DNA from: Planctomycetota bacterium
GTDB lineage: Bacteria; Planctomycetota; Phycisphaerae; UBA1845; UTPLA1
Reading direction: 5' to 3'
NCBI GenBank assembly: GCA_016235815.1
Contig: JACRIM010000050.1
Span: forward strand, 1 to 64,000
Length of the DNA stretch: 64,000 nucleotides
Shown here: piece after piece, positions 3,367 through 60,779 of the stretch
Position numbering within the stretch: the first letter of the stretch is position 1
Layout of the letters: each line of letters opens with the position of its first letter
Position numbers and translations under genes: made by a program
Notes under the pieces: model-generated
Told to the model about the DNA's origin: nothing
Seen by the model: only the letters and a program-made list of their open reading frames with translations
Databases searched by the model: none

Positions 3367-4269
3367 GAGTGTTCCTCTCAGACAGGAGCGATCATTCTAC
3401 CCAATGGACTGCACCACCGTCAGCCGCGCGGGCAATCACGCGCCCATTGGAGAAGTCGCTTCCCGATCCCCTCGCGCAACGCATCGTTTCACTCAAATTA
3501 GGAAAAAACAGGATTCGCCCCCCTGACCGCTATTAACTCTCGACCAGCCCAAGACTTATCGCAATTCCAGTCCGTCTGAAACGGTGATCAAGATTGATAG
3601 GTGTAGGTAAAGAAGGGACGTTGAGTCACAACATGAGAATCACGTATGGCCCAGACAAAACAAACCCCATTGATCGCCCAACGACTACATCATCGTTCGA
3701 CCGTGGGGATTCGACATTCGGCACGCCTTCTCCCGCCGCCGTGCCGGGAAACGCCAGCAGACGCCAGCTGTTTTTCAATTCCCACGTCAATTTGCCGCAA
3801 TTGCGGCCCCACCCCCACGTCGCGCAGCGATCATCCTCCTGCGCCTCAGGACTCAGGACTCAAGACTCAAAACTCAGGACTCAGGTCTTCCTTCCAATCC
3901 CTTTGTGCGATTTTGCGCGCTCCAGCCCGGTTTTTGTGCTTTTTTGTGGGGGGTATTTTTTTACAGCCCAACGTCGCGCAGCGACCCCTTCCTCGGCTCT
4001 GTTCCCTGTTCCCCGTTCCCTGTCCCCTCTGTGCCTCAGTGCCTTCGTGCCTCTGTGCCTATCGCTTTTCCTCGGCCCCTCTTCCCCCCACTTCACCGCA
4101 TCCCTCCCAATCTGCAGTTTCAACAATTCGCCAACAGCCGCGCCGGCCCCTCATCCGTCTTCCCTCGGTACTGACATCACGCAGCGCCTTCGAGCAATCC
4201 ATTCACCCGGCGCGGTCCGGGTGACCGGGGCGCAGCGCGGTCGGTGCCAACTTCAACGAGGGATGACCC
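3367..4269. other. gene-free, repeat-rich stretch
   Basis: About 900 bases with long open frames on the plus strand but no credible protein: the translations are low-complexity and shift between Ser/Pro/Arg-rich runs. It holds word repeats: an ACTCAGG/ACTCAAG series at 3844-3889, an 18-bp piece of which (3872-3889) recurs inverted at 59284-59301; a GTTCCCTGTTCCCCG series and a GTGCCTC series at about 3997-4060; and two copies of ACGTCGCGCAGCGA near 3818 and 3971. The last 20 bases carry the SD sequence (GAGGGAT) of the beta-helix gene. Confidence 0.65.
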
Positions 4270-19961: not shown

Positions 19962-21539
19962 ATGACGCATGTCTCCGCCGGTTTTCCGCGATGGATGGTC
20001 ACCGCGCTGCTGCTGGCAGTCGCGGTCGCCGTGCATGGACACGTGTCGGCGTCACGTTCACAAACGCTCTTGGAACACGACGAAGCGATCTCGCTCATGG
20101 CGGCGGCGGGCAAGTCGCACCTGGCCCATCAGCTTTATCAGCGCAGCGATTCACCACGCGTGTCCTCGGCCGGCGAATTGCAGCATTTCATGCAATACAC
20201 CGGCACGACGGGATTCTGGGATGTCCTTCGGTCCCTGGCCAACTACGACATTCATCCGCCGTTCTACTTTCTGCTGCTGCAGGGCGCCGAGCGGTTGGGC
20301 ATCACCTCCCACACCCTGCTTCGCTTGTTTGGGCTGATCATCATGAGCGCCGCCGCATGGGTGGGGCATCGCTATGTCTGGCCCGACGCAGCGCCACCGG
20401 CCAGGGCACTGGCGGCGGCGTGGCTGCTTCTCTCGCCGACGTGCATCGAGCTTGCAACTCAATTGCGGCAGTATCCGCTGGTCTGGCTTGGAACCATGCT
20501 GAGTCTCGCCGGGCTTGTTCGCCTCACCAAGGATACGAATCAGCCTGCACCATCCGCGGTATTGATTGGAGCGGGACCGCTTGTCCTCCTGGCATCGCAC
20601 TTCGGCACCGCCGTCTGGATTGTGATACTCGTTTTGTGCGGCGCGTGGATCGTGCGAATCCAATCTTCGAGAATGCGGCAGCCATTCATCGTCGCAGTCG
20701 CGGGGGCGCTCGTGCTCGCCTCGCCGCTTCTCTATTGGTGGTGGAAGTACGCCGGCGATATCGGTGCCGCGCCATCCATTCCGCCGGCGCGATGGTGGAA
20801 CGAAATCCTTCGACCCATGTTCGACAGTCTGGGCCATGCGTGGGCTTCGTGGCCGAATCGATGGGACGATACGGGGCTTGGGCCGGTGGTTGGAATTGGA
20901 ATCGCGGTGATCGCCGGTGTCTTGGCCGTGCGACGACGCGCAACACTCGAGTCCATCCTGGGGTTCGCGATTGTGGCGTGGGTGGCATCGTGGATGGCGC
21001 TTCTGGCCGCCGGGAAGATGCCGGCCCATGCGGTAATGCCGAAGTATTTGGCGCCGCTCATGCTTGGCGTCCTGACGATCATTGTGCGATCGACAGCGCG
21101 TACGCTCGCCCCGCGAATGCGAACCATGGCGTTGACGCTCTTACTTGCAGCCATGCTTTCTCACGGATTTGGCATGCGTCAGGCGTTGGCGCGGCCGAAG
21201 GCCGAACCGCTCATGGACGCTCTGGCGCGATGCGAATGCCTGCTCATCAATGTGCCGAAGCGGGGGTTTGTTCTGCCGCTGGTGGCGCCGATGCATTCGT
21301 CGGCGCGCGTCATCGTGGCGACGCCCGAGCAGGCGCTGCGCGACTGGAGCGCAATGGAAACGCTGCTCCCGACCAACGACGTGTTGGCCGTGGAAGTCAT
21401 GCAGGAGCCCAGCGCCGAAGCGAGGGAGTTGGCGAATCGGTTGAAACGGAAGTACGAGTACGCCGACCGGCTGCGTGATGAGCCGGCCCGCGTGATGACC
21501 TGGTATCGGCGCCCTTCGGGGCCATGGAAGATGCGATAG
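19962..21539 (+). CDS. GT39-like polytopic membrane protein inside the atp operon
   Basis: 525 residues, ATG 19962 with GGAG 8 bases upstream. About 10 membrane helices in the first 400 residues, then a soluble C-terminal domain. Near the N-terminus is LEHDEAISLMAA and, further on, YDIHPPFYFLLL, the acidic pair and HPP motif of the dolichyl/undecaprenyl-phosphate sugar transferase (GT39/ArnT/PMT) fold. It probably moves a sugar from a lipid carrier outside the membrane; donor and acceptor are unknown. It sits between atpA (57 bases) and atpG (4 bases), so it must be co-transcribed with the ATP synthase. A longer frame at 19901-21478 in another phase is a shadow. Confidence 0.8.
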   Translation: MTHVSAGFPRWMVTALLLAVAVAVHGHVSASRSQTLLEHDEAISLMAAAGKSHLAHQLYQRSDSPRVSSAGELQHFMQYTGTTGFWDVLRSLANYDIHPPFYFLLLQGAERLGITSHTLLRLFGLIIMSAAAWVGHRYVWPDAAPPARALAAAWLLLSPTCIELATQLRQYPLVWLGTMLSLAGLVRLTKDTNQPAPSAVLIGAGPLVLLASHFGTAVWIVILVLCGAWIVRIQSSRMRQPFIVAVAGALVLASPLLYWWWKYAGDIGAAPSIPPARWWNEILRPMFDSLGHAWASWPNRWDDTGLGPVVGIGIAVIAGVLAVRRRATLESILGFAIVAWVASWMALLAAGKMPAHAVMPKYLAPLMLGVLTIIVRSTARTLAPRMRTMALTLLLAAMLSHGFGMRQALARPKAEPLMDALARCECLLINVPKRGFVLPLVAPMHSSARVIVATPEQALRDWSAMETLLPTNDVLAVEVMQEPSAEARELANRLKRKYEYADRLRDEPARVMTWYRRPSGPWKMR

Positions 21540-21543
21540 CTGT

Positions 21544-22419
21544 ATGGCAAAGGCAAGACAAATCGTCAAACGCCGCAAGGCGGTGACCAACATCCGCAAG
21601 ATCACGAAGACGATGCAGCTCATCGCCACGGCGCGATTCCAGCAAGCCTTCAACCGCGCGGTGGCCTCCAGACCCTACACCAACAAGATCACGCAACTCG
21701 TCGGCGAATTGTCCGCGGCAACGGCCGGAACGATCGAGCATAAGTTGATGCAACAGAATCCCGCGGCGCCCAAGGATCTGCTCCTCGTGCTGACATCGAA
21801 CCGCGGACTGTGCGGCGGTTACAACGCGGGCATTTTGCGAAAGGCCTCGGCCCATCTGCACGCACACACCGACCGCCCGACAGAATTGCATGTCGTCGGG
21901 AAAAAGGGCAATGCGTACTTCCGATTCATCAAGCGCGTGGTGGACCGCGCCATCACGACAATCGACGACCGCCCGCGATTCGAACAGGTTGAGCCAATCG
22001 CAACGGAATTCATTTCGCGCTACGAGGCCGGCGAGTTCGGCGCGATTTATGTGTGTTATATGAGGTTTATTTCGACCGGCAAGCAGGTTCCCGAGGTCAT
22101 TAAGCTGTTGCCGCTCTCGCAAGACGAAACGTCGAAGAGCGCCGCAACGACAACGACCACGGTTCAATATGATTTTTCGCCGCAGCCGGAACAATTGCTG
22201 ACCGTGCTGCTCCCGCAGACCGTCAAAGTGCGGCTGTATCAGTCCTTTACGGACATGGCGGTCAGCGAACAGGTGGCGCGCATGGTCGCCATGAAGGCCG
22301 CGACGGACTCGGCGGGCGACATGATCAAGAATCTGTCCCGCGCGTTCAACCGCGCCCGACAGAGCCAGATCACGATGGAATTGTTGGATATTGTGGGGTG
22401 TGCGGAAGCATTGAAATAA
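21544..22419 (+). CDS. atpG: ATP synthase F1 subunit gamma
   Basis: 291-residue rotor subunit. Signatures: RRKAVTNIRKITKTMQLIATARFQQA at the N-terminus and AVSEQVARMVAMKAATDSAGDMIKNLSRAFNRARQSQITMELLDIVGCAEAL at the C-terminus, the two ends of the coiled coil. ATG 21544 is 4 bases after the GT39-like stop. The TAA stop (22417-22419) is immediately followed by the GAATAGCG-word repeat that opens the inserted four-helix-bundle cassette. Confidence 0.96.
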   Translation: MAKARQIVKRRKAVTNIRKITKTMQLIATARFQQAFNRAVASRPYTNKITQLVGELSAATAGTIEHKLMQQNPAAPKDLLLVLTSNRGLCGGYNAGILRKASAHLHAHTDRPTELHVVGKKGNAYFRFIKRVVDRAITTIDDRPRFEQVEPIATEFISRYEAGEFGAIYVCYMRFISTGKQVPEVIKLLPLSQDETSKSAATTTTTVQYDFSPQPEQLLTVLLPQTVKVRLYQSFTDMAVSEQVARMVAMKAATDSAGDMIKNLSRAFNRARQSQITMELLDIVGCAEALK

Positions 22420-22420
22420 T

Positions 22421-22448
22421 AGCGAATGTCGAATAGCGAATAGCGAAT
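22421..22448. repeat. left inverted repeat of the four-helix-bundle cassette
   Basis: The stretch from AGCGAATGTC to AGCGAAT repeats the words GAATAGCG/GAATGTCG three times. Its core GAATAGCGAATAGCGAAT (22431-22448) is the inverse of the repeat at 22872-22902. It begins one base after the atpG stop codon. Confidence 0.85.
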
Positions 22449-22462
22449 TTACTGCACATAAC

Positions 22463-22861
22463 GTGGATGCGATTCGAAACAACGATGGTGAGAGTGCGGA
22501 GAAGAAAACTCGAAATCCCCGCAACATTGAAGCAAGGACATTTGAATTCGCGATACGAGTTCTGCGACTCGTAAAGTGTTTACAGAATGATACGGTCGGA
22601 AATGTGGTCGCACGGCAATTGGCCAGGTCAGGAACCAGTGTGGGCGCGAATGTCGAGGAGGCACAAGGATCGCACTCACGTGCAGAGTTTGTCCGGAGAA
22701 TGGGCATTGCCCGATCAGAGGCACGGGAGGCCCATTACTGGCTTCGAATTATTGGCGAAGTAGGATTGGTTAAGCCGTCACGGCTTGTCAAGATCATTAA
22801 AGAGTCCGAGGAGATACTGAAGATTCTGACTGCGATAGTTAAGAACAGCAGAAAAGTGTAG
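22463..22861 (+). CDS. four-helix-bundle protein (S23/TIGR02436 type)
   Basis: The 132-residue helical protein reads FEFAIRVLRLVKCLQNDTVGNVVARQLARSGTSVGANVEEAQGSHSRAEFVRRMGIARSEAREAHYWLRII, which has the signature of the four-helix-bundle family first seen in 23S rRNA intervening sequences and related to the Avd accessory protein of diversity-generating retroelements. The start is GTG 22463; no SD sequence is visible. It lies between atpG and atpD, framed by inverted word repeats, and no reverse transcriptase or rRNA is nearby. The function of the family outside those settings is not established. Confidence 0.85.
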   Translation: MDAIRNNDGESAEKKTRNPRNIEARTFEFAIRVLRLVKCLQNDTVGNVVARQLARSGTSVGANVEEAQGSHSRAEFVRRMGIARSEAREAHYWLRIIGEVGLVKPSRLVKIIKESEEILKILTAIVKNSRKV

Positions 22862-22871
22862 GCCGTCGGCT

Positions 22872-22902
22872 TTCGCTATTCGCTATTCGCTATTCGCTAT
22901 TC
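22872..22902. repeat. right inverted repeat of the four-helix-bundle cassette
   Basis: Four tandem copies of TTCGCTA-words, inverse of the left repeat at 22421-22448. It ends 18 bases before the atpD start, leaving the SD (GGAG) of atpD intact. Confidence 0.85.
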
Positions 22903-22917
22903 TGAACATCGGAGTGA

Positions 22918-24381
<1,464 letters not shown>

Positions 24382-59368: not shown

Positions 59369-59450
59369 GAATGACCAATGTCAAATTACCAATTACAAAA
59401 ACTCGCTGCCGCCCGCCACATGCATTTGGTAATTGGTAATTCGTCATTCG
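59369..59450. repeat. inverted-repeat unit 1, over the glycosyltransferase stop
   Basis: Left arm 59369-59396 (GAATGACCAATGTC...AATTACCAATTAC) and right arm 59425-59450 (TTTGGTAATTGGTAATTC then GTCATTCG) are largely inverse, separated by about 28 unique bases. The glycosyltransferase stop codon (59444-59446) lies in the right arm, so its last two codons come from the repeat. Confidence 0.8.
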
Positions 59451-60616
59451 ACCTTAATGCGTTGATACATCCCCTCAATGCGATCCACCATGACGTTGTG
59501 ATCGAACTCAATGATACAGCGGCGGCGGCCTGCGGTGCCGTAGCGGCGTCGAAGCGTTGGGGCGTGGGCGAGTTGGACGAGGGCGTCGGCGAATGCATTC
59601 GTGTCACCGAGTGGAGCAAGCTCGCCGGTCACGCCGGGGATCACCACCTCGGGCGCGCCATCGACGGCGAAACTCACGGCGGGCTTCTCCATAAGCAGGG
59701 CCTGCACGACCGCGCGCGGCAGGCCCTCCCATTGTGACGTGTGGGCGAGAAGGTCGATGCCGGCGAGGACGCGGGGAATGTCGGCGGGGGGAATGAGTCC
59801 GGTGAACGTGACGTGCTGGCGGAGGCCGCGGCGCGAAAGCTCCGCTTCGTAGTGCGCACGATGAGAGCCGCCGCCGACGCAAAGGAAATGAAGATCTGGT
59901 GCGTGTGGGACAGCCCGTTCAATGACGTCGATGAGTTGCTCGTAGCCCTTGTTGGGGAACAGGCGGGCGATGGTGGCGACGATACAGAGTTCGTCAGCGC
60001 GCTCATGAAGTTCTTTGGGAAGCAGCGCTCGGCGACACTCGGCGGCATCGTGCATAGCGGGGTTGAAATCAGCGACGACCATGCCGCTGCGGATCGTCGT
60101 GTACTGCTCCGCGTGGCCGATGCAGGCGTCGAGAGATTGCTCGGTCATGGCGTCGGCAACGGAGACGATCTTCTGGCAGTAGTCGGCACAGAGGCGTTCG
60201 GCTGTCGCGTAAAGAAGCTGCACCGGGCGCGGCTGCGTGCGGTTGAAGCTTCTGCCGTGGATGGTGTGGACGATGATCGGCACGCCTGCCAGATGGGCGG
60301 CGATGCGGCCGAGGATGCCCGCTTTGCTGGAATGCGTGTGGACGACGTCGGGGCGGAGTTGTTCGAAGCGGGCGCGAAGATCGTGCAAGGCGCGGAGGTC
60401 GCAGAGAGGGGAGACGTTGCGCACGAGCGGCGCGATCTCTTCGAAGCGATAATGTCCGCCGCGAGCGCGTTCCACGAGCGAGCCTTCGGGACCGGTCGTC
60501 GGGCCGGAGAGCAGGATCACATCGTGCCCGCGCGCGGCGAGGCCTTCGCAGGTGAGCAGGGTGTTCTCCTGCGCCCCGCCGATGATGAGCCGGGTGATGA
60601 CGTGGACGATCTTCAC
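59444..60616 (-). CDS. GT4-type glycosyltransferase
   Basis: 390 residues. N-terminal Rossmann half begins MKIVHVITRLIIGGAQENTLLTCEGLAARGHDV with the GGAQ nucleotide-sugar loop; PDVVHTHSSKAGILGRIAA follows. C-terminal half has ATIARLFPNKGYEQLIDV and LLAHTSQWEGLPRAVVQALLMEKPAVSFAVDGAPEVV, the EX7E motif of GT4 enzymes (E...GLPR...E). It transfers a sugar from a nucleotide donor to a glycan or lipid in the cytoplasm. Its stop is inside an inverted-repeat unit. Confidence 0.9.
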   Translation of the reverse strand: MKIVHVITRLIIGGAQENTLLTCEGLAARGHDVILLSGPTTGPEGSLVERARGGHYRFEEIAPLVRNVSPLCDLRALHDLRARFEQLRPDVVHTHSSKAGILGRIAAHLAGVPIIVHTIHGRSFNRTQPRPVQLLYATAERLCADYCQKIVSVADAMTEQSLDACIGHAEQYTTIRSGMVVADFNPAMHDAAECRRALLPKELHERADELCIVATIARLFPNKGYEQLIDVIERAVPHAPDLHFLCVGGGSHRAHYEAELSRRGLRQHVTFTGLIPPADIPRVLAGIDLLAHTSQWEGLPRAVVQALLMEKPAVSFAVDGAPEVVIPGVTGELAPLGDTNAFADALVQLAHAPTLRRRYGTAGRRRCIIEFDHNVMVDRIEGMYQRIKVE

Positions 60617-60686: not shown

Positions 60687-60779
60687 GAATGACCAATGTC
60701 AAATTACAAATTACCAAAGGGGTGCGACAACGAGTGTTTTGTAATTGGTAATTCGTCATTCGTCATTCTTCATTTGTCA
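60687..60779. repeat. inverted-repeat unit 2, over the truA stop
   Basis: Left arm 60687-60718 (GAATGACCAATGTC...ACAAATTACCAAA) and right arm 60737-60779 (TTTTGTAATTGGTAATTCG, two GTCATTC words, TTCATTTGTCA) match unit 1 at 59369-59450 in both sequence and order. The truA stop (60763-60765) lies in the right arm. Confidence 0.8.

Follow-up and report, generated by a model that had tools for sequence, protein, structure and literature searches.

In Coxiella burnetii the intervening sequence (IVS) of the 23S rRNA carries 28-bp terminal inverted repeats and an S23 open reading frame (ORF), and is excised by RNase III in vitro; IVS distribution is sporadic, and function and origin have been described as unclear (PMC4990558). 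A resemblance of Avd to the family PF05635, to which S23 proteins belong, has already been noted (PMC10053308). Dispersed heptameric repeats are described from Xanthomonas and Nostoc, with 70-75 inverted pairs per genome in Xanthomonas (PMC4692102). S23 genes in rRNA intervening sequences, the S23-Avd resemblance, dispersed heptamers and some inverted pairs of them are each known separately. In the open-access literature, to which our search was confined, we were not able to find any work linking S23 genes to word arrays, or any S23 cassette with array ends in operons or coding sequences.

Here we describe such a cassette at positions 22418-22902 of the window (the whole stretch of planctomycete DNA that was analysed, 64,000 nt), between the ATP synthase genes atpG and atpD. 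Like the 23S rRNA IVS, it holds an S23-family ORF within a unit whose complementary ends make a long stem. Unlike the IVS, its host is an mRNA operon or, for other copies, a coding sequence rather than an rRNA; its ends consist of tandem words of 7-8 nt, different in each element; and in the copies inside dnaE2 the host frame is open. The arrays share with the Xanthomonas and Nostoc heptamers and with the cyanobacterial STRR sequences that they are dispersed tandem heptamers, but here they end a gene-bearing unit, and no link to S23 is made in the passages found in the heptamer paper (PMC4692102). We consider it probable that 22418-22902 belongs to a family of small mobile elements that spans the bacteria, in which an S23 gene lies between inverted arrays of 7- or 8-nt words.

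The S23 unit between atpG and atpD

Both host genes are intact: atpG (21544..22419, plus strand; PF00231, E 1e-85) ends in the stop codon TAA at 22417-22419, and atpD (22921..24381, plus strand; PF00006, E 5e-69) starts at 22921, behind a ribosome-binding-site-like CGGAGTG at 22910-22916. A preliminary description of this DNA had stated that the cassette broke neither gene, which is borne out, and had set its borders at 22420 and 22902. The downstream border stands; the upstream border has to be moved, because the 5' arm begins at 22418, inside the atpG stop codon, whose last two bases are overlapped by the first GAATAGC word.

The 5' arm (22418..22448, plus strand) repeats the heptamer GAATAGC in tandem and is rich in purines on its sense strand, and the 3' arm (22872..22902, plus strand) is the inverted heptamer array, (TTCGCTA)x4.4, with a tandem identity of 100%. 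The arms form 30-nt inverted repeats (22418-22447 and 22872-22901) of about 4.4 heptamers each that are 93% complementary, and the early observation that the same words return inverted on the far side of the gene is thus confirmed. When up to 2 mismatches are allowed, the 14-mer GAATAGCGAATAGC has 5 matches in the window where 0.22 would be expected; all of them lie at the cassette, and this number was reached by no shuffle. In the predicted RNA fold of 22410-22925 the arms pair across the whole unit (22418..22902, plus strand), with an MFE of -173 kcal/mol and a z of -4.0 relative to shuffles. The GC content of the cassette is 49%, compared with 59% for the window. A search of Rfam with the unit gave no match to a known structured RNA, and we rejected this identity for it. 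The unit satisfies the IVS criterion that an S23 ORF be enclosed by complementary ends able to pair into a long stem; being intergenic, it does not satisfy that of a location in a 23S (or 16S) rRNA gene. In-frame insertion into a coding sequence, seen for related copies in dnaE2, is also absent at this locus.

The gene between the arms (22463..22861, plus strand; predicted GTG start) encodes 132 amino acids. It matches both PF05635 (E 4e-20, 72.3 bits against a curated cut-off of 33.8) and TIGR02436 (E 2e-25, 89.3 bits against 24), so that its initial assignment as a 132-residue S23/TIGR02436-type gene between atpG and atpD is secure. The AlphaFold2 (AF2) model of its core has a pLDDT of 97 and meets the criterion of a four-helix-bundle fold; the best PDB matches found by Foldseek are 2RLD and 2GSC, solved structures of S23 proteins. 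The core model also shares the fold of Avd from the diversity-generating retroelement (DGR) of a Bordetella phage (4DWL, TM 0.73), in agreement with the kinship between the S23 family and Avd that had been invoked from the start. S23 is the only gene between the arms, and the earlier remark that no transposase is present therefore applies to the unit, which does not meet the transposase criterion of a DNA transposon. The unit resembles REPIN/RAYT systems in placing a gene between inverted repeats of a kind also found alone in the genome. RAYTs, however, belong to the HUH transposases and have a defined REP motif, whereas the gene found here encodes an S23 four-helix bundle with no known catalytic site, its words vary, and the HUH criterion is not met.

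The Avd-like fold would be in line with retro-mobility, in which a reverse transcriptase supplied in trans would move the element, as Avd serves diversity-generating retroelements; the sense orientation described below would also suit an RNA intermediate. Unlike in Avd systems, no reverse transcriptase was found in the window's genome (G000, 95% complete; 0 matches to RVT_1), which extends to the whole genome what had been reported for the neighbourhood of the cassette. The DGR criterion of a cognate reverse transcriptase is not met, and a reverse transcriptase in trans was rejected as a candidate on this ground. RVT_1 was detected in 27 of 61 genomes, yet it is undetectable also in the S23-rich genomes G036 (12 S23 genes), G051 and G058 (8 each). 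We regard retro-mobility as very improbable.

Word arrays around S23 genes

We compared the window's genome with 60 relatives (61 genomes in all), and with a named set that spans many bacterial phyla and includes some archaeal bins, in which one genome per species was scanned and 74 of 80 named loci were usable. S23 genes are present in 48 of the 61 genomes. For 115 distinct loci in these genomes, the 400 nt upstream of S23 were tested against the 400 nt downstream, with an inverted score of at least 15 as threshold. Inverted arms were found at 72% of the loci. The direct orientation gave 8%, flanks paired across different loci 1.7% and random windows 1.0%, and with these controls we could reject that arms are a feature of any intergenic region. 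Among the named loci, 51 of 74 had inverted arms across phyla (cross control 1.4%). Arms belong to the S23 cassette family in general, not to the atpG-atpD locus in particular. They are missing from about a quarter of the S23 loci, and from nearly all members of two clades.

The best arm period was 7 or 8 nt for 155 of 159 arms in the relatives and for 80 of 82 in the named set, and 5' arms were purine-rich in 79 of 88 cases in the relatives. Periods of 7 and 8 also dominate the arrays of the sampled genomes, which meets the criterion of the heptamer type (dispersed tandem arrays of ~7-nt units); these array counts rest on samples. A prediction drawn from the known Xanthomonas repeats held: S23 genes of Xanthomonas, Pseudoxanthomonas and Rhodanobacter carry G-rich heptamer arrays on both sides, and one Rhodanobacter gene (L283) lies between arrays of GGGATTC, close to the xanthomonad word GGGAATC. 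The longest arms seen, ~240 nt on each side, belong to a Planctomycetota S23 gene (L266). A location in rRNA was checked for 20 named S23 loci, and none of these was in rRNA.

The window's genome has seven S23 genes, six of them with inverted word arrays and each of these with a different word. Arms on TIGR02436-type genes elsewhere, for which the preliminary description had proposed a search, are indeed found family-wide, but the word itself is not shared. No single sequence marks the ends, since each element has its own word, and fixed-word terminal repeats were rejected because words differ between loci. The word arrays themselves are the ends of the unit. The earlier observation was right, and it understates the case.

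This diversity bears on DNA transposition in trans, by which a distant transposase would recognise the iterated ends and move the unit like a MITE. Such a process would produce inverted ends, presence and absence at sites, and gene-less derivatives, all of which are found. Each element has its own word, however, with at least six in the window's genome, so that a single transposase recognising all ends is unlikely; the strong sense bias and the in-frame copies with an alternative frame kept open, both described below, further weaken this explanation, and we find it very improbable.

Gene and arms evolve together. At a given site, the resemblance between two arms is far greater if they belong to one element than if they come from different elements (medians of 31 and 11 in dnaE2, and of 22 and 10 at atpG-atpD). 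Word similarity rises with the identity of the S23 proteins (Mantel r 0.35, with 0 of 2000 permutations as high), and words are shared mainly among elements with similar S23 proteins.

Insertion and orientation at host sites

An S23 cassette is present between atpG and atpD in 7 of 30 genomes compared, the window's genome included, and many other genomes have only 11-60 nt between the two genes. The spacing in relatives that lack the gene identifies empty sites, also within genera: G013 is filled and G002, of the same genus, is empty, and another genus contains all three states, intact (G014), decayed (G006) and absent (G016). The gap holds a lone array in G010, and arms without an S23 gene in G018 and G025. 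The element has inserted, being present, absent or decayed at given sites, and the original proposal of a mobile cassette bounded by word repeats is supported. The empty sites come only from other species, too diverged to resolve a target-site duplication or a strain-level empty site; mobility and ends are well supported, and no movement step was seen.

The S23 copies at atpG-atpD fall in one S23 clade and keep paired arms. They represent one S23 lineage tied to the site, and the cassette is therefore not a random insert. The same two facts might be taken as signs of a domesticated operon gene, with S23 passed on vertically as a stable member of the atp operon and with the hairpin serving in regulation or mRNA processing. 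Against this, presence is patchy, with empty and decayed states inside genera; a copy of the same clade sits between atpA and atpG in G019; and the elements at atpG-atpD carry different words at the same site. Domestication thus appears highly improbable to us. In the window, the interval between atpA and atpG holds an ORF of 525 aa without a Pfam match (19962-21539); in G013 and G019 an S23 cassette lies upstream of atpG, at the operon position of this ORF.

In nine genomes the same variable loop of dnaE2 holds an S23 cassette; in other genomes this loop is empty and consists of a short stretch of ordinary residues. A second cassette of G029 (L057) lies at a different dnaE2 position. Ten cassettes in total sit inside dnaE2-type polymerase genes, and two further copies (L022, L059) are found at similar places in Eco57I-type methylase genes. 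The dnaE2 genes of G000 and G015 belong to one tight clade together with the empty relatives G001, G008 and G013, yet their S23 proteins are only 51% identical and their words are unrelated; the G015 element instead groups with an element in another family (G035), to which it has 63% S23 identity and a similar word. Since the hosts are close while S23 proteins and words are distant, we infer that these copies were inserted separately into one site. Vertical inheritance alone is disfavoured at dnaE2 by an AU test against a single same-family dnaE2 S23 clade (p 0.018), although this test had few columns and a group that was chosen after seeing the tree.

S23 genes are strongly oriented with their hosts. 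Loci with both neighbours co-directional with S23 outnumber those with both opposite by 71:2 in the relatives and 42:1 in the named set (113:3 in total), as compared with 86:89 for random points. Gene calls were made by a simple open-frame method, in which single calls may err but which has no strand bias. It could alternatively be that the sense bias reflects a need of S23 for host transcription, or purging of antisense copies.

In all ten cassettes the dnaE2 host frame stays open from end to end, always at one fixed offset from the S23 frame, so that one DNA stretch is kept open in two frames, the element's and the host's. By synonymous shuffling of S23 codons the chance of this is ~1e-12 if the copies are independent, which they are not fully. 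A wider set of read-through copies had been selected by openness, and only the dnaE2 copies, identified independently through the similarity of their flanks, were therefore used in this test. In-frame inserts were also sought in the named set, and none was found there. Rickettsia palindromic elements are likewise palindromic inserts in frame inside protein genes; they have no gene of their own, whereas the inserts described here also encode S23, in another frame.

A proposed transcript-resident element, and arrays without S23

Sense bias, paired arms and an Avd-like fold together point to an element whose home is the host transcript. Our best reading, which we favour without regarding it as settled, is that the element is mobile, follows the orientation of the transcript and is related to the 23S rRNA intervening sequences, and that its word-array arms form its ends. 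We propose that the element would reside in the host's transcript, as those intervening sequences do, be expressed by read-through from the host promoter, and form a long stem from its two paired arms. We presume that S23 binds these arms; as a relative of Avd, it may bind the stem or the word array and aid insertion at related sites, with cutting and joining left to an unidentified host enzyme. Intergenic copies could be made harmless by RNase III trimming of the stem, which is likewise inferred, and copies within genes by in-frame translation. Several points count against this explanation: S23 has no known catalytic activity, and no mechanism is known for fast, concerted word change in both arms; to these are added the quarter of S23 loci without arms, the arrays of G008 described below and the absence of any observed movement step.

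If this reading is extended, S23 might be the mobility factor of bacteria-wide, transcript-oriented elements with variable word ends, which would be the source of the unexplained heptamers and of which the rRNA IVS would be the rRNA-resident branch; we offer this wider proposal only tentatively. Two old puzzles meet in it, the spread of S23-bearing rRNA intervening sequences and the origin of dispersed heptamer repeats, and if S23 and heptamer arrays are parts of one element, a single protein with its cognate word would suffice to test both. Such a family, found in most bacterial phyla sampled, would so far be filed as a hypothetical protein plus junk repeats. Our results point to a widespread, largely unrecognised kind of mobile element, and there is a real chance that the S23-array element is a class of its own.

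Arrays also occur without the gene. The genome G008 has 50 matches to GAATAGCGAATAGC, with several close convergent pairs, and only a single weak S23 hit; arrays can therefore spread or persist without an adjacent S23 gene, and a confinement of words to genomes with a cognate S23 is not upheld for GAATAGC. Matches to the word AACTAGA are scarce, and several of them belong to the arms of its own S23 elements. In the window, two hairpins at 59370-59453 and 60689-60777 have near-identical arms (GAATGACCAATGTCAAATTAC...), unrelated loops and no S23 gene, and flank one gene-sized stretch. Together with G008, such S23-less hairpins indicate that arrays may have a life of their own.

It is possible, in fact, that the hairpins are independent repetitive DNA (of the cyanobacterial and xanthomonad heptamer type, or REPIN-like) that slippage or an unrelated host enzyme has spread, and that S23 is a passenger caught repeatedly in their loops. 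S23-less arrays are common, as in the two window hairpins, in G008, and at atpG-atpD in G018 and G025, and many different words occur within one genome, as this explanation would have it. It does not account for words that track S23 identity, nor for frames at ~70% of S23 loci in all phyla sampled, and a sense bias of 113:3 is unexpected under random gene capture by DNA hairpins. We consider a passenger role for S23 unlikely, though not to be dismissed, and retain the reading of S23 and its arrays as one mobile, transcript-oriented element.

In regions with a dnaE2 S23 cassette there are also S23-less arrays of the same word as that cassette (L127, 5816-5845; L138, 7204-7717), which suggests local spread of the word. 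Three solo GAATAGC arrays of the window's genome (L008, L016, L017) lie within three copies of a larger dispersed repeat that also holds an array of the word GTGGGA. Finally, three different word arrays stand in a row at 3843-4060 of the window: CTCAGGA, CTGTTCC and CCTCTGTG.
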